NCBI GenBank assembly: GCA_963971535.1
Contig: OZ020599.1
Span: forward strand, 96,373,357 to 96,437,356
Reading direction: 5' to 3'
DNA length: 64,000 nucleotides
From: Notolepis coatsorum
Lineage: Eukaryota > Chordata > Actinopteri > Aulopiformes > Paralepididae
Position 1 is the first letter of the stretch. Each line of letters opens with the position of its first letter. Shown here piece by piece: positions 1 through 60,979 of this stretch. The notes beneath the pieces were generated by a model, which saw nothing but the letters and a program-made list of their open reading frames with translations, was not told the DNA's origin and made no database searches. The translations under genes were made by a program, and so were the position numbers.

Positions 1-521
1 GTGTACAATACCAACATAAGTACAAATAAGTAGGCTATAAGTAAATAATAGAAGTACACATTAGACAAGTTAAAGATAATTGCACATTATATTGATGCAG
101 ATGCACTATAGGCCTACTATAGGGTGCTGTGTGAAGTTGCCCAAAACTATAACTATAGACTTGTTGCGCGGAGCTTCATTTATTTTTCATAATGCGGTTT
201 CCTATTTCTGTTAGGGTTTGAAACCGACCTCAACAGCACGGCACAGACAGGTAGTTCAGAGTTAGCCAAACACTAGGGCGTATTTATTACAGAATCAAAA
301 AGAGCCAAATAACAAATCTGAATCAACAAAAAAGGAGAATGCCTTCGGCAGAGTTGTCTGCGGCTCTGCAGATCCTCCCGGTGTTAGAGGTGGGGAATCG
401 GCATAGGAGCCGCTGCGGCTCTGCAGATACTCCCAGATCCAACTCGGAGTGGAAACGGAGAGAGAGAGAGAGATCAACAACAGTCCAACAGTACACAGAG
501 GCAGTGCAGTTCAGTCCTCCC
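1..521. other. Unassigned repeat-rich start of window
   Basis: I see no gene here. Two copies of a CTGCGGCTCTGCAGAT module lie near 356-376 and 414-434. The same module ends longer repeats at 19640, 51510 and 53730, so this stretch is probably repeat-derived. A short GAGA run lies at 460-473. Confidence 0.5.
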
Positions 522-757
522 TTAGCTGAGTCCAGTATGAAATACAAGTGACTTGATCTTCGGTGTAAACTACACACAAGTTAGCTGAGTCCAGTACAAA
601 ACAAAACGGTACTTCTTTAGTGTTATCCAAACACACAATTTAGCTGAGTCCAGTACAAAACAAAACGGTACTTCTTCAGTGTTATCCAAACACACAATTT
701 AGCTGAGTCCAGTACAAAACAAAAACGGTATTTCTTCAGTGTTATCCAAACACACAA
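522..757. repeat. Tandem repeat, unit about 59 bp, four copies
   Basis: The phrase TAGCTGAGTCCAGTA recurs at about 522, 582, 641 and 700. Each copy is followed by a similar tail ending in TTATCCAAACACACAA. The first copy is divergent and the last three are nearly identical. Short frames that read through it are repeat translations. Confidence 0.85.
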
Positions 758-1319
758 AAACAGATAATCCAAAAAGGTTTGTTTCCAAAACTCACCAAAG
801 CGCAAACGCGTAAAGCGGGCAACGAGGCGCAGCTCCAAACGGATGATCAAGATATTCACCAGCGGCGATCCAAAGATGTCCTGGAGGGAAAGTAGACGAG
901 GCACAACAACGGGGGGAGGGAACAGGCAGTAGCAGTAGTAATCAAAACGACCCGACCACGATTGAAAGACGGTCCGAGTATATGAAGCCTCTGGAGCGCT
1001 AATCACAAACTACGACAGGTGCGTGATGGAATTGGTAATCGCTCCTGAAGCGTGTGGCGGGGAATGCACCAATCAACACAGTACCTTGAAGAAGCGTGTG
1101 GCGGGGAACGAGCCAATCCTCACAGAATCCTCACAATTTCCATGAAACGGATTCCTAGAAAAACACATACGAAGTAAGTAAATGGCGCAGACTACATTAA
1201 GCCAAATGTGACCCTGTTTGCTTTGGTAACGGCGTCATGCCCAGCCCACTGACTGTAGCGGGGGCATACCTCACAATAATGTCCCCCCCCACACCCCCTT
1301 CTGTCCCCCTGGGAATGGG
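758..1319. other. No recognised feature
   Basis: No supported gene. A local near-duplicate, GAAGCGTGTGGCGGGGAA, occurs at about 1046 and 1091, followed each time by a related CCAATC stretch. Confidence 0.4.
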
Positions 1320-1450
1320 AATTACTATTTTTAGAGGCTAGTAGTTTATATAGTATAGTAGTTTATACATTATTTTAGAATTTATATCTTGACTGTGTAT
1401 TATTATTATCTGTGGTGCTGAATTTCCCTCGGGATTAATATGTACTTCTA
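1320..1450 (+). mobile_element. Possible LINE 3' end
   Basis: The run ending in GAATTTCCCTCGGGATTAAT at about 1420-1439 resembles the 3' end of a common fish LINE, in which this phrase is followed by a short tandem tail. No reverse transcriptase remains, so the clade (perhaps RTE/Rex3) is a guess. Confidence 0.4.
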
Positions 1451-1875
1451 TTCTATTCGATTTATGTCAACACATATTTCACCTATGTACGCCCCCCCTC
1501 GCCCACCAGTCGTCGCCACCGAGGCAGATGGCAGGTACTTTCCACAACCACAGATCGGTGGCACAGCAGGTCCCTGTGCTAATAGTGGTGCCGTGCTTTG
1601 AAATGTTTGCAACGGATGCGGTTGAACCTGCTGACCTATATGTTTGGTTGAAAACACACTGGAAATGAAACAGTGGTGGTATCCGCTTTTTGGCTCATTC
1701 CTCTCAGCATATTTTCATTTCAGGAGCGGGCGCTGGCTCGGCGACATTTTACATAATCATTCGTAGGCCCAAATCAACCGTGTAAATAGAGCGTTGCTTT
1801 CGTTGCTGTACAAAGCAACAGTTGCACTCATTACTACGAATGCAGGGGCTTGTCTAAATGTAGGCTGGACAAGAT
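1451..1875. other. No recognised feature
   Basis: The short frames here have no domain that I recognise, and I see no repeat structure. Confidence 0.4.
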
Positions 1876-2182
1876 ATGCCTCCTAAAGTGTGTAAACGGA
1901 AGTACAGGCTTTCCGGTTTCGACAAAACAATTATAGAAACGTGTGAAGTGCACAATAGTTCCTCGTTTAAGCCACTGCAACAGCTTTGCCTGAAGAATTT
2001 ACTACATGACCGGGACGTTCTAGCTTGTTTGCCGACAGGATTTGGGAAAAGTTTGGTCCATTCGGAGGCAGCTTCCAGGGGAAGTACATACACCGGAAAT
2101 TCTACCCCATACACACTTTCGGCTGTAGTTCTTTACCAGGCTTTATCTCACAGAGGAGATAAAACTGGGAACGAGGTTAGTC
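1876..2182 (+). pseudogene. RecQ-type helicase N-terminal fragment
   Basis: The frame opens with an ATG and about 45 residues later carries KPLQQLCLKNLL, then RDVLACLPTGFGKSLV. This is the motif 0/Walker A arrangement of RecQ-family superfamily-2 DNA helicases, which use ATP to unwind DNA. After the Walker A lysine the sequence stops resembling a helicase, and by 2183 it runs into the 3' end of an inverted LINE, followed by an assembly gap. No DEAH box or further motif is present, so the piece is cut off after its first 60 or so recognisable residues. It could be a first coding exon whose remainder lies elsewhere, or a gene fragment carried by mobile DNA. The motif is seen in the sequence. 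Function and integrity are inference. Confidence 0.5.
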
Positions 2183-2370
2183 TACAATTACATTTACATT
2201 TAGTCATTTAGCTGACGCTTTTATCCAAAGCGACTTACATGTTCTGTACAACAAGTCATCAAGAAGGGCACAACTCTATCAGCTGAGTAACAATGTTCAT
2301 CAAAGTGTTGAGTGCTACAGTGTAGGTTAGTTTATTAGGACAAGTGCATGACAGTAAGGTTAGTTAGGCC
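2183..2370 (-). mobile_element. LINE 3' end (family A), truncated by the gap
   Basis: ACATTTACATTTAGTCATTT followed by GACGCTTTTATCCAAAGCG is a very common fish repeat. The same 3' sequence follows a reverse-transcriptase C-terminus at 16385-16800 (minus) and 53040-53330 (plus). That shows it is the 3' untranslated end of a LINE, here in minus orientation. It runs into the Ns at 2371. Confidence 0.7.
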
Positions 2371-2570: not shown

Positions 2571-2675
2571 CAGTATATCGGTAGTGATGACGTGGTATCG
2601 AGGCATCGCCAACAGTTGTTTTTGAGGTGACACTTTAGCAGACTGTGAAAGTGAAAGTGCAGTTCTCGTTCTCAC

Positions 2676-2766
2676 CATCATTTGCTACCTGCACGTATAC
2701 GACACATTTACGGATGACGATGTAGGTGTCGTAGGCAAAGATCAGGCCAGCAATCAAGCCAAGCAC
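2676..2766 (-). CDS. plp2-like: PLP2-like copy A, exon 4
   Basis: The acceptor TTTAG precedes GTGCTTGGC and the donor is GTGAGA at 2670-2675. The first 15 codons (fourth membrane helix) match copy B with one change. The last 15 codons (IVIRKCVVYVQVAND) are unrelated to copy B's 17. The sequence after the donor is again identical. If unspliced, the frame reads to TAA at 2635-2637. Confidence 0.8.
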
Positions 2767-2789
2767 CTAAAGAGAAAAAAATGAAAAAA

Positions 2790-3350
2790 ATATTATTTAT
2801 ATTGTATATAAGCTGCATTATGATAACATGTACAATGATACTGTATATACCGTATATATATATTCTATTATTCTTATATACAGTATATCTATCCACATCT
2901 GTCTGAATATACCTGCATACAATCCTTCTATACCTATTTATACACCTGCATATAACACATATAACTCTGTATGATAGCATGTTGTATAATAATGCTGTAT
3001 ATACAGTATATATTTATTCTACCGTATATCTATCTATCCACATCTTTCTTTACATACCTGCATATAATCCTTTTACATATCTGTAGATACTACAGCTATA
3101 TCTGTACATATCCCTTATCTTTATACCTGTATCACTGTACATATTAATACTACTCTCTTTACCTACACCTGATTAGCACTATACTCAGTAGTACCAATTT
3201 ATATATTTTATACCTAGTTTAACCAACTGTACATTGTATATTACACTTTACTGTTACATTTGCACTCTGGTTGGATGCCAAACCCCTTTGTGTTGTACTG
3301 TACTTGTGCTGTATAATGACAATACATTTGAATCTAATCTAATCTAATAT
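2790..3350 (+). mobile_element. AT-rich LINE-type 3' end with AATCTA tail (intron 3, copy A)
   Basis: The segment ends in CATTTGAATCTAATCTAATC, a tandem tail typical of LINE insertions. Related tails lie at 35310-35390 and, inverted, at 35708-35760. The body carries repeated phrases such as CTGTATGATAGCATGT at 2822, 2970 and again at 5134. It is shared with copy B (30445-31075). Confidence 0.6.
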
Positions 3351-3884
3351 ATAGCCATGATGATGCACCATATGAAAGCTAAATGCCCCTATACCTTGAT
3401 ATAGTGCCCTCCATCAATGCCTGATTTCCTGTCTCCTTCTCTTAAAAGGTTGTTCAGGGCTCTATCTGTCCCGTTTGTCTCTGCCCTCGTCATCTCCGCA
3501 CATGCTGTTCCTCACACTAGCTCCAGCTAGTTAGCCAAAGTGTTAATATTACACAGCAAACAAAGCTCGCTGAAATCTACTTTGCGTGCAATGTGTAGAG
3601 TCGATTTCAAGTCGTCTTCACTCTAGGGTCAGGCTAGGGTTCCAACAAGTCAAAACGATTCCCCTAAAGTGGTCATATCTATAATAAGGTTGGACGGAAT
3701 AAGCAACCAGCTGATGTTTGTTGACAGTCAAAACTCTGGGGTTGTTGGAACATAGAACAATGTGCTTTTGAATTCCTATTTTCACAACATCACCGTCAGA
3801 CGTATGAAGAACCGATAACAAAAGCAGGTCCCGTGTTTGTAAAGGTTCCGCCTGTGTACAGAAACACAAGTGGGAGCTGCAGGG

Positions 3885-4090
3885 GTTTTAACCCTTTCAC
3901 TGCCACACTACAGAAGGTTAACCCTTTACTATGTCGGTAGTGTGATAGTAAAGGGTTAACCTTCTGTAGTGTGGCAGTGAAAGGGTTAACCCGCTGTCGT
4001 GTGGCAGTGAACGGGTTAACCTTCCATGTATTGTCGCAGTGATTGAAAGGGTTAACCGTTTGGTAGTGCGGCAGTAGTGAAAGGGTTTAA
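3885..4090. repeat. Palindromic GGTTAACC minisatellite, intron 3 of copy A
   Basis: Units of about 30-35 bp are built on AAAGGGTTAACCCTTT plus a CACTRCCACACTAC spacer. Units lie in both orientations: forward at 3885-3935, then inverted from 3940. The array can therefore fold into a long hairpin. It ends five bases from the exon 3 donor. Confidence 0.9.
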
Positions 4091-4095
4091 CTGAC

Positions 4096-4194
4096 CCCGC
4101 CTGCGATACGGGCCCGATCCCCGCAGGCATTAATCACGGCGATCAGAGAGATGACGATGTGAAGGACCGCGCCGACAAACGCACGTAAAATATC
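4096..4194 (-). CDS. plp2-like: PLP2-like copy A, exon 3
   Basis: These are 33 open codons between the acceptor CTACAG and the donor GTCAGT. Against copy B I count 21 differing bases of 99, and only one (GCT/GCG) is silent. The last ten or so codons (ARIAGG and the bases before it) and both intron flanks are almost unchanged. Confidence 0.85.
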
Positions 4195-4263
4195 CTGTAG
4201 AGAAGAGGGAGAGGACAGTAGTTGTATAAGCAATGACAAATGATGATTGTGAGAGTGTATGCC

Positions 4264-4265
<2 letters not shown>

Positions 4266-4318
<53 letters not shown>

Positions 4319-4323
4319 TGTGG
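4266..4323. repeat. (GT)n microsatellite, intron 2 of copy A
   Basis: About 23 uninterrupted GT units followed by a short imperfect part. The matching array in copy B is at 32020-32069. Confidence 0.95.
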
Positions 4324-4329
4324 TACATC

Positions 4330-4660
4330 CATTTCAAGTTTCAAGTTTTGTTTTATTTCTCACATATAAAAAGTACATGTACATTATAGTGATTATAGTA
4401 CATGCTTGGTTCTGTATGAGCCTCGTGAAATGTGCTTCGTACAGTCAAAAGGAAAATAATAAAGACCAAACACTATACAAAATATACAAATACAAAACTA
4501 AAATGTACAAAATGCAAAGACTACTAAATGCTAAATGCAAAAATGAGGTAGAGAGGTAGTGCAAAAATGTTTAGTAATAAATAGATACAAATATGGTGTA
4601 GTGTTAAAGAGTGTTTAAAGTGAACGTCAGAGGTGAATGTTTAAAGCGAGCCGAGGCAAG
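4330..4660 (-). mobile_element. Inverted LINE 3' end in intron 2
   Basis: The segment begins CATTTCAAGTTTCAAGTTTT, the reverse complement of a (GAAACTT)n tail, followed by an A/T-rich 3' untranslated-like sequence. It is shared with copy B at 32075-32385, so it predates the duplication. Confidence 0.55.
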
Positions 4661-4673
4661 CGGATGTACTCAC

Positions 4674-4831
4674 AGTCCCAGTGACCACTACGATCTCTGC
4701 ATTCTCCATCTCCCGGTTCGTCATGAAGAGGCCAAGAAGACCATGGAAAAGATCATGGTAAGGATAGCCACTGTGCAGTAAGCGGCGCTCTGCGACGCGG
4801 CATAGCAGATGAGGATGATAAAACTGATCAA
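4674..4831 (-). CDS. plp2-like: PLP2-like copy A, exon 2 (frameshifted)
   Basis: Acceptor TTTTAG and donor GTGAGT match copy B. The first 30-odd codons align with copy B and differ at about 19 bases, none silent. After the one-base deletion the frame reads LASS and stops. The distal third bears no clear relation to copy B's QFLLVNWLWT. Confidence 0.75.
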
Positions 4832-7175: not shown

Positions 7176-7355
7176 TGTTAACCCTTTCACTACCACACTA
7201 CCAAAGGGTTAACCCTTTCACTGCGACAATGCAGAAGGTTAACCCTTTCACTGCCACACGACAAAGGGTTAACCCTTTCACTACCACACTACAGAAGTTT
7301 AACCCTTTCTCTACCACACTACAGACAGTTAACCCTTTCACTACCACACTACAGA
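7176..7355. repeat. GGTTAACC minisatellite, intron 1 of copy A, first array
   Basis: Six units of 30 bp, AACCCTTTCACTACCACACT plus a linker, lie in one orientation. The 30-bp period gives a spurious frame with repeated VNPFTTTLQ. Copy B holds the same array, split by a solo LTR. Confidence 0.9.
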
Positions 7356-7760
7356 CTCAGAGTACTCAGATGAATGAGCTGGTTGTGATACCAAAGACAA
7401 AAGCAACCAATGAGCTTTAAATAATCAATCAGCTGTCCTTTTTGGAGCCAGGAACACACACAGCCATAGTTTGTAAAGTCTTTTTACGTTTAAAATATAT
7501 ATTTTTTAACTTTTGGTGTGGGGTAGCCAGGCAAGGAAGGGAATAACAAATGTAATATGTTGGCTAAGCAACATATGATGAGTGCCAGAATCTCTGGTCA
7601 AGTGATTAGGAGACCAAGCCGAGTCAAGGGAAACCGAACCATTGATATTGGAAAATGAGCAAATGAGCATTCCCAGTTACGATAAACCCTAATACGGAGT
7701 GATGAGAACGACTTCCTGTGTTTAGCTTCGCACAATCATTCGTCTTCCGGCACTAGTGAA

Positions 7761-8497: not shown

Positions 8498-8690
8498 TTT
8501 AACCCTTTCACTTACCACACTACCAAAAGGTTAACCCTTCCATGGCGACAATACAGAAGGTTAACCCTTTCCCTGCCACGCGACAAAGGGTTAACCCTTT
8601 CACTGCCATGCGACAGACGGTTAACCCTTTCACTAGTAGTGTGGTAGTGAAAGGGTTAACCTGCTGTAGTGTGGTAGTGAAAGGGTTAAA
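8498..8690. repeat. GGTTAACC minisatellite, intron 1 of copy A, second array
   Basis: Four forward units are followed from about 8636 by two inverted units (GTAGTGAAAGGGTTAACC), which makes a palindrome. The match is at 48690-48850. Confidence 0.9.
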
Positions 8691-9520: not shown

Positions 9521-9592
9521 TATTTCTGCAGTGAGAATAATACCCCTTCGGGTCTTGGCGTAGACCTCCAGCTTCTCCATGCAATTGGCCAT
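9521..9592 (-). CDS. plp2-like: PLP2-like copy A, exon 1
   Basis: The ATG at 9590-9592 opens 24 codons ending TAEI before the donor GTAAGT. The three substitutions against copy B all change residues (E/K, R/Q, R/K). Nine codons after MA (DTAPSSTDG in copy B) are absent in frame. Confidence 0.8.
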
Positions 9593-29963: not shown

Positions 29964-30319
29964 TGTGGGAACGGGATACCAGGAAATTTATTTTCTGTTT
30001 ACTGCAGAGCGGAGGTACTGAGAGACCCATGTTACTGACCAGACACTATCAGTGATGGCAAGTTATTATCTTTTGTTATATTATAACAAGGAAATACCAC
30101 TTACAGCTCCTTTATTGGTTTAAACTTTAAATCTATACAGTTCACTTCGGTAAAACTAATGGATTGGATCGGTACTCTGAATCAGACGACACGTAAAAGT
30201 TTCATAATCAGAATCAGTATATCGGTATTGATGACGTGGTATCGAGGCATCGCCAACAGTTGTTTTTGAGGTGACACTTTAGCAGACTGTGAAAGTGAAA
30301 GTGCAGTTCTCGTTCTCAC

Positions 30320-51057
<20,738 letters not shown>

Positions 51058-58692: not shown

Positions 58693-59904
58693 ATTGAGCG
58701 GGTGAGTATAGTGGAACCTTCGGAACCAGGGGGTGGCGTGCGGAGTTACAGGTCTATACGTGGCTATTTGATAGAAGCGGGGTCTGGATTCGTGCTCAGA
58801 GTTGAACCATGGTACGTGTGCGGCAGACCAAAGGGTCTAGTTTAACTTTGTGCACAGCAGGCGTGTTAATTAGACTGCGTTAGGCTGTAACAAAAAATAG
58901 TACTTAATGAAGAGTCGATTAAAAAGCTATAGGAAACGATATGGTAAACTTAAACACTGTCTAAAGTACGGAGGGTAAAATATGCCCAGTGGTTGTTGAC
59001 GGGATGTGGAGTTATACCGCGCGCGTCAGGGACCATAATAATAATGTTGCAAGCTATGGTTAAACATTTGTTGGTGTATGATGTTTGTGTATGAGTGAAA
59101 GGACTTATGGTTATGTTGAACATGTGTGATATATATGGATTAAATCTGTAAATTGGCACTTAAAATATGACTGAGAACGGTTTTTAGTATTGAACCTGGT
59201 GCACGCAATGTCCACTGCGCCACTCAACTATGCGTGGAGGAGAATCGCGTTCTCGTCAGAACTCGTGCGTATCGTAGCGCGCGGCTAGGTTAAAGCTACA
59301 TGCTACAATAGCTCGTCGTGGCTCGCTTTATTGCAGTATAACTGTATTATCTTTAATAAGGAATGGGCTAATGTTTACAAAGTATTGGCTGGATGTTTAG
59401 ACATGTTTAAGGATGCACGATGAATGAGTGGGCCGCTTTAGAGAGGTTAGGAATGAATGAAAGAAACGGATGTATTTGTAAACAAATGGAAAGTCCCGTG
59501 ACAAAGCCTCGCGTTGTGCTATTCTGGAGACCAACGAGATCTCAGAATTGCGGACGTGACGTAATTTCGGTGACGGGGTCTAGCAGGAAACCGGCCTGCG
59601 AGACGAACTACAATTCGGTGCAGGGGATTCTGGGTGTTGGGGTTAAAAGTTGAGTGGGCACGTGGGCTGGCGTTGAGGAGGCGTGGCGGCGTGATGACGC
59701 GCGTATTGTTAGAAGGTTGGGGGCGCCTCCTGCAGGATGTTGGGGGGTACTGTGGTGCAATAGGCGTGATGTGCGAAAAAGGGCAGCAGGGGGCGATATT
59801 GTCTTAGGAATTGTTATAGCCTATTTGTTTCCACAGTCCCTCTGGTGTAAATGTGTGGGGTGCTTTCAAATCGCTAGCCCTGGTGCGCTCCCTCAAGAAA
59901 CCCC

Positions 59905-60870
59905 TCCTCTCACTCCCCTCCCCTTCCTCTCTCTCTCTCCCCTCCCCTTCCTTTCTCTCTCTCCCCTCCCCTTCCTCTCTCTCTCTCCCCTCCCCTTCCT
60001 CTCTCTCTCTCCCCTCCCCTTCCTCTCTCTCTCTCCCCTCCCCTTCCTCTCTCTCTTTCCCCTCCCCTTCCTCTCTCTCTCTCCCCTCCCCTTCCTCTCT
60101 CTCTCTCCCCTCCCCTTCCTCTCTCTCTCTCCCCTCCCCTTCCTCTCTCTCTCTCCCTCCCCTTCCTCTCTCTCTCCCCTCCCCTTCCTCTCTCTCTCTC
60201 CCCTCCCCTTCCTCTCTCTCTCTCCCCTCCCCTTCCTCTCTCTCTCTCCCCTCCCCTTCCTCTCTCTCTCTCCCCTCCCCTTCCTCTCTCACTCCCCTCC
60301 CCTTCCTCTCTCTCTCTCTCCCCTCCCCTTCCTCTCTCTCTCTCCCCTCCCCTTCCTCTCTCTCTCTCCCCTCCCCTTCCTCTCTCTCTCTCCCCTCCCC
60401 TTCCTCTCTCTCTCTCCCCTCCCCTTCCTCTCTCTCTCTCCCCTCCCCTTCCTCTCTCTCTCTCCCCTCCCCTTCCTCTCTATCTCTCCCCTCCCCTTCC
60501 TCTCTCTCTCTCCCCTCCCCTTCCTCTCTCTCTCCCCTCCCCTTCCTCTCTCTCTCTCCCCTCCTCTTCCTCTCTCACCCCCCTCCTCTTCCTCTCTCTC
60601 TTCCCTCCTCTTTCTCTCTCTCTCCCCTCCCCTTCCTCTCTCTCTCTCCCCTCCCCTTCCTCTCTCTCTCTCCCCTCCCCTTCCTCTCTCTCTCTCCCCT
60701 CCCCTTCCTCTCTCTCTCCCCTCCCCTTCCTCTCTCTCTCTCCCCTCCTCTTCCTCTCTCACCCCCCTCCTCTTCCTCTCTCTCTTCCCTCCTTCTTCTC
60801 TCTCTCTCCCCTCCTCTTCCTCTCCATCTCCCCTCCTCTTCCTCTCTCTCCCCCTTTTCTCTTTTTCTAG
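59905..60870. repeat. CT-rich minisatellite, about 1 kb
   Basis: Units of about 20-24 bp, CCCCTCCCCTTCCTCTCTCT with variable CT count, repeat more than 40 times. Higher-order variants (CTCCTCTTCC) occur from 60560 on. Frames of hundreds of codons on both strands are repeat artefacts. Confidence 0.95.
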
Positions 60871-60979
60871 CTTTCTTGCTGTTCTCTCTCTCTTCCTCCT
60901 TCTCAAATAGGAGGCGTTTGGGCAGTGCAGAGTATGGCATATAGTGTAATGTGTTTTATGGGTTGGAACAGGTCTGTTC

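Follow-up and report, generated by a model that had tools for sequence, protein, structure and literature searches.

Coding exons of tandemly arrayed plp2b genes in a fish genome have diverged faster than their introns, in a pattern pointing to selection for altered proteins

The window analyzed in the present study is a stretch of fish DNA 64,000 nucleotides long (G000:C44:96373357-96437356), which carries two genes on the minus strand, designated A and B, the best homologues of which are teleost proteolipid protein 2b (plp2b). Each gene has four coding exons, and a tblastn search of the window revealed, beyond chance-level matches, only A and B and no further copies. Features are listed by window position; C1 and C3 are copies elsewhere on the same contig, and A-type and B-type are the two exon types described below.

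9521-9592, minus strand: copy A exon 1, the same sequence as C1 exon 1, without 27 bases found in B
4674-4831, minus strand: copy A exon 2, 158 nt, A-type, the frame broken by a one-base deletion private to copy A
4674-4721, minus strand: replaced A-type segment forming the 3' end of exon 2; a genome search revealed no donor
4195-4673, minus strand: copy A intron 2, differing from B at 5/453 aligned bases
4096-4194, minus strand: copy A exon 3, differing from B at 21/99 bases
2767-4095, minus strand: copy A intron 3, differing from B at 22/1,324 aligned bases
2635-2766, minus strand: copy A exon 4, coding part, with a conserved fourth transmembrane helix (TM4), a replaced tail, and final codons common to B
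2674-2721, minus strand: replaced A-type tail segment within exon 4, for which a genome search revealed no donor either
2371-2570, no strand: 200-N gap, the junction of the C1-C3 block and the A-B block
50959-51057, minus strand: copy B exon 1
32407-32562, minus strand: copy B exon 2, B-type, 156 nt
31850-31948, minus strand: copy B exon 3, B-type
30279-30416, minus strand: copy B exon 4, coding part, B-type

The C-terminal extension common to A and B is not found in the consensus of other plp2b proteins; at window ~2638-2662 it comprises a TTTCAC repeat, of which C3 has one unit fewer. A recurring motif around AACCCTTTCACT was observed in both orientations in the introns of copy A (3890-4090, 7180-7360, and 8500-8690), and a minisatellite with a period of ~24 bases, open in several frames, occupies window positions 59903-60900.

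In the alignment of A with B, which starts at 2571/30215, near-identity was found in introns 2 and 3 but not in the exons. When the intron 1 sequence nearest the exon and the 3' UTR were added to introns 2 and 3, 29 of 1,916 bases differed (1.5%), in agreement with the intron identity of about 98% given in a preliminary description of this DNA, although intron 1 is less similar farther out (2.8%, 3.2%, 4.5%, and 11.5% difference in four aligned blocks). The count of 21 differences in the 99 bases of exon 3 was reproduced exactly. That description had also counted about 43 substitutions in exons 1-3, one of which was silent; in the alignable codons of these exons we obtained the same total of 43, with 41 in residue-changing codons and two, not one, silent. 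By the Nei-Gojobori method over 117 codons, replacement differences amounted to 40/264 sites and silent differences to 5/87, the latter number exceeding two because of path averaging in multi-hit codons and the inclusion of one exon 4 codon. Replacement sites exceeded introns with an odds ratio of 11.6 (Fisher p=1.4e-20), which bears out the roughly tenfold faster divergence of exons claimed previously, and they also exceeded silent sites (p=0.026, Nei-Gojobori dN/dS 2.8). The Nei-Gojobori dS of 0.060 is itself above the intron value (raw counts, p=0.014).

The changes are unevenly distributed along the coding sequence, with few replacement changes in exon 1 (pN 0.054) and TM4 (0.031) and none in the last 13 codons (0). 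No base-by-base alignment of A with B is possible over the 3' third of exon 2, and exon 4 is also affected in that the 48 bases following the conserved TM4 have been replaced. At the end of exon 2 and in the tail of exon 4, exon segments have been replaced by unrelated sequence, as in the process termed ASSET in snake toxin genes; outside these two segments, change has occurred by point substitution. Searches of the genome with each segment gave three matches, all in the array described below, and hence no donor outside it, and searches within the window gave weak matches only. Differences in exons 2 and 3 start at the fourth base of each exon, and intron mismatches within 60 bases of exons (7/280) were compared with those farther off (22/1,548; p=0.19). 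Introns that are more conserved than exons are what accelerated exon evolution among paralogues predicts. The coding parts have changed approximately 10 times faster than the introns, almost always with alteration of the protein; such a pattern is indicative of strong selection favoring novel forms of a protein that is usually stable.

A DNA search of the genome with window positions 3100-4210, in which the best 40 of 5,094 candidates were scored, identified five full-length places, all on contig C44, namely A, B, and the following three copies.

C44 96234743: copy C1, A-type, open frame
C44 96277892: copy C2, mosaic, open frame
C44 96321668: copy C3, B-type, open frame

The same search returned 48 matches, the 43 others being pieces of ~90-260 bases. 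A protein search of the genome with B gave 14 exon matches, every one in the C44 array, and thus no slowly evolving plp2b or plp2b-like match outside it. A Pfam MARVEL search of the genome gave 26 matches, none inside the array, which was missed because its exons are short. As a separate observation from the Pfam searches, seven RAG1 (PF12940) matches, all short pieces, were found on the small contig G000:C1750 only. A further set lies on the opposite strand, and a tandem repeat directly follows the N-terminal piece; introns that interrupt RAG1, a duplication of the gene, or poor assembly may account for this arrangement.

The copies fall into two exon types, the A-type represented by C1 and A and the B-type by C3 and B. 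C3 and B are identical across exons 1-3, the C3 tail being two codons shorter. Frames are open in B, C1, C2, and C3 and shifted in A alone, and one broken copy out of five is not the picture of an array of pseudogenes. C2 combines a B-type exon 1 with an A-type exon 2 (B-like at one of 37 sites), an exon 3 in which 15 B-type sites are followed by five A-type sites and then one B-type site, and an A-type tail with an ending of its own, while 18 of the 19 diagnostic sites in the introns flanking exon 3 carry the A-type state. C2 exon 3 carries C95 and M105, two residues of B that hardly any of 150 homologues possess; it is therefore more probable that this sequence was transferred from a B-type copy than that it was retained. 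Type-diagnostic sites number 60 in ~300 exonic bases versus 19 in ~1,950 intronic bases. Seventeen intron sites separate C1, C2, and A from C3 and B, matching the exon split, and three sites in intron 3 join C2 to C3, counter to it.

The preliminary description had regarded A and B as a pair of paralogues. Both are indeed plp2b genes; however, the assembly holds five copies, A is frameshifted, and A and B may belong to a second haplotype. The A-B and C1-C3 blocks are collinear overall at 96-99.8%, across the 200-N gap, and the sequence following C3, together with window positions 1-2370, aligns collinearly at 96.5-99.8% with that following B, except for ~10.5 kb present in one only. The upstream flank of A matches that of C1 at 98.7-99.3% over ~3.8 kb and at 97.4% over 5 kb with gaps counted. 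It appears somewhat likelier that the A-B block is the other haplotype of the C1-C3 block, A and B being alleles of C1 and C3 and C2 being present on one haplotype only, than that the block was recently duplicated. This reading alters the copy number and not the existence of two types, because an A-type and a B-type copy both lie within the C1-C3 block, a stretch of ~87 kb from C1 to C3 that was read in parts. Window positions 1-2370 were also observed to recur downstream of the window at 99.4-99.8%.

Regarding the identity of the encoded proteins, B gave 293 matches in the protein database; among the 120 listed, the best showed 76-78% identity, and the named ones were mostly proteolipid protein 2 or 2b. 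C1 gave 94 matches, the best with 63% identity over 82% of the query, in which named proteins were again mostly proteolipid protein 2 or 2b and a few were hypothetical or unnamed; no A-like protein of another species was among the matches listed for C1. Since the matches listed include nothing close to B (best 78%) or C1 (63%), they give no sign of expression. By their closest homologues, the copies belong to plp2b. B (31.4 bits, E 2.3e-7) and C1 (20.4 bits, E 5.7e-4) each match the nearly full-length Pfam MARVEL profile PF01284 below its curated cut-off of 32.8 bits, and homology rests on the protein database matches.

Residue changes were polarized with 150 of 159 listed homologues, those of 148-157 residues. 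Among the 32 alignable residues that differ, 15 are derived in the A-type, five in the B-type, and four in both, with eight being ambiguous. Of the 56 alignable columns with a conservation of at least 95%, eight are altered in the A-type (K18, K25, E58, Y97, I99, G108, G112, and F120), whereas the B-type, tail extension aside, alters one strongly conserved column (I106, I106V). A DKQ...NWxW stretch, invariant in 35 aligned homologues, is kept by B and missing from the A-type; similarly, E58 in TM2 is kept by B and lost in the A-type, which gains H97 and R112. Changed residues among those alignable are distributed as follows, the region limits being approximate as they were taken from a model of a Pungitius homologue with a mean pLDDT of 64.1.

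N-cytoplasmic region: 1/14
TM1: 5/21
Loop 1: 3/8
TM2: 6/18
TM3: 13/22, the most changed helix
Loop 2: 2/4
TM4: 2/22

The changes thus extend beyond exposed or extracellular loops. At the helix positions that exons 2 and 3 encode, the A-type preserves hydropathy, the limits of the four helices being those of the Pungitius model only.

Values of dN/dS above 1 were obtained by both approaches used, with differing statistical strength. The Nei-Gojobori ratio of 2.8 was significant (p=0.026), while pairwise maximum likelihood (ML) with our own GY94-type script gave omega values of 2.1 for 122 codons (p=0.11), 2.9 for the 70 codons of exons 2 and 3 (p=0.059), and 0.85 for the 52 codons of exons 1 and 4 (p=0.86). 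The pairwise ML values above 1 fall short of significance at 0.05, and silent sites are few. C1 and B encode the same residue in 90 of 122 codons, and silent differences in these codons occupied 2/65.3 sites, a level similar to that of introns (p=0.27); differences were more frequent in the 32 residue-changing codons than at these silent sites (one-sided p=0.025). In a neutral simulation, in which the same 39 substitutions were placed in 210 nt, 7.0 silent-only codons were expected versus one observed (P=0.0046), the mean helix-position hydropathy was 2.25 observed versus 1.34 expected (P=0.0005), and a stop was gained in 50% of simulations. A comparison of C1 with A gave 6/386 exonic versus 3/1,807 intronic substitutions (p=0.0015), and a comparison of C3 with B gave 0/384 versus 16/1,795 (p=0.09; tail indel left out), which indicates that the A-type is still evolving rapidly and the B-type is not. 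The rate contrast, the simulation, and the further copies of the same two types consequently uphold the accelerated exon evolution proposed in the preliminary description, even though dN/dS is less decisive than it had implied.

The pattern is genuine, strong, and out of the ordinary, and we consider positive selection on a recently duplicated plp2b gene, the A-type, to be the best explanation and a probable one, with selection rather than mutation appearing to be the driver. Several observations were counted against it. The dS of 0.060 above the intron level is what a conversion model leads one to expect, the ML tests gave p>0.05, mismatches are slightly commoner in introns near exons, and three intron sites are shared by C2 and C3; moreover, copy A is broken, and C1 and B score under the Pfam cut-off. 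The conversion model, in which the exon types are old, introns have been homogenized by gene conversion, and exons have been held apart by selection, as in opsins, accommodates the greater divergence of exons, the elevated dS, and the exchange visible between copies in C2 exon 3 and the three intron sites. Nevertheless, it is unlikely, because dN in the array is 2-3 times dS, whereas in gibbon L/M opsins dN was not above dS (PMC3213168). In addition, silent differences in same-residue codons equal those of introns (p=0.27), 17 type-specific intron differences agree with the exon type, and the differences in exons 2 and 3 start at the fourth base. The opsin signature of a dS far above introns without an excess of dN is, therefore, absent with respect to dN and mixed with respect to dS. 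GC-biased conversion was also considered: among 45 differences between the types, G/C is found in the A-type at 22, in the B-type at 16, and in neither at seven; it was rejected because this is not a strong bias and the process would not spare silent sites.

That a diverged cDNA from a retrocopy, or an unknown segment switch, replaced the exons without selection is very unlikely; it would fit the outright replacement of two segments and the confinement of change to exons, but a diverged donor would have brought silent changes as well, and the genome yields no donor for either segment (three matches each, all in the array). A decaying A-type pseudogene is highly improbable despite the frameshift in copy A and the loss of residues conserved in other fish, because decay would strike introns and silent sites equally and C1 and C2 are open, while the shortage of silent-only codons (P=0.0046) and the high hydropathy (P=0.0005) are incompatible with neutrality; the preliminary description had likewise dismissed a loss of constraint, and the simulation substantiates this. 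It is hardly credible that an assembly artefact created the pattern, as distinct from the copy number. Copy A adjoins the 200-N gap, and the C1-C3 sequence recurs in the A-B block at 96-99.8%; however, both exon types occur within the C1-C3 block, where gaps are possible in the ~87 kb read in parts, and errors would neither keep to exons nor favor replacement changes.

According to the selection model, plp2b would have been recently duplicated in tandem on contig C44, after which positive selection may have turned the product of the A-type lineage into a new protein. The changes acquired by its exons 2 and 3 and cytoplasmic tail would be nearly exclusively replacements, in addition to two segment replacements, with introns, silent sites, and TM4 remaining almost unchanged in the meantime. 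The B-type lineage may have undergone some replacement changes after the split and is now apparently conserved, and short exchanges between copies, as in C2, may have generated further variants. The A-type protein would then keep the membrane topology of PLP2 with altered partners within the membrane and at the cytoplasmic face, having lost the DKQ...NWxW stretch as well as E58, and the loss of E58 in TM2 and the gain of H97 and R112 are consistent with changed membrane partners. This account of how the A-type works is suggested with less assurance than selection itself; the protein could serve as a new trafficking adaptor or permit escape from an exploiter of PLP2, such as a virus.

As to the cause, plasmolipin, a related MARVEL protein, is a receptor for a mouse endogenous retrovirus, and a role as a virus receptor or in gamete or mucosal recognition may be envisaged for the array. 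An arms race is a tentative suggestion. A broader scheme, which we regard as doubtful, is that the array is a diversifying recognition locus, in which plp2b is the host side of an arms race (e.g., with a virus exploiting PLP2) or a gamete recognition factor, selection acts on intramembrane helix-helix contacts, new variants come from replacement substitutions, switched exon segments, and short exchanges among the copies, and copy number and null alleles vary by haplotype. In a 2013 study, human PLP2, the role of which was termed unclear, was bound and required by the herpesvirus E3 ligases K3 and K5 for export from the ER, and charged residues in membrane helices were proposed as contacts (PMC3836740). 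The fish copies belong to the same family as this human host factor, the link to viruses being a finding in human cells.

The venom phospholipases A2 of snakes are an example of accelerated exon evolution, and, to our knowledge, exons evolving faster than their own introns are known mainly in secreted toxins and recognition proteins. The small serum protein genes SSP-1 and SSP-2 of Protobothrops have a KA/KS of 1.739 and an intron KN of 0.0649 (PMC6609765). The plp2b array resembles such snake gene arrays in its tandem arrangement, low intron divergence, and excess of replacement changes, and its intron divergence (1.5%) is below that of the Protobothrops SSP genes; in contrast to these arrays, which encode secreted proteins, plp2b encodes a four-pass membrane protein with changes inside its transmembrane helices. 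In snake toxin genes undergoing ASSET, short exon segments are swapped for unrelated sequence while introns remain alike (PMC2474615, PMC2711939). A-type plp2b has two such segments; unlike these genes, it does not encode a toxin, has changed by point substitution elsewhere, and is most altered in TM3. Similar to the L/M opsins of primates, the array consists of tandem duplicates with exons more diverged than introns; however, in gibbons dS was greatly above introns and dN not above dS (PMC3213168), and the reverse applies to plp2b. Among the papers listed by searches of the open-licence literature for PLP2, plp2b, or MARVEL duplication or selection, none described accelerated evolution of a MARVEL protein, in line with the preliminary description, which knew of none. 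The array may serve as a natural set of variants for probing the function of PLP2, and a clear instance in a conserved four-pass membrane protein would imply that transmembrane helices can be subject to selection as strong as that on toxins. Thus, as far as our searches of the open-licence literature show, the process is known from snake toxins, and the class of protein is new to it.
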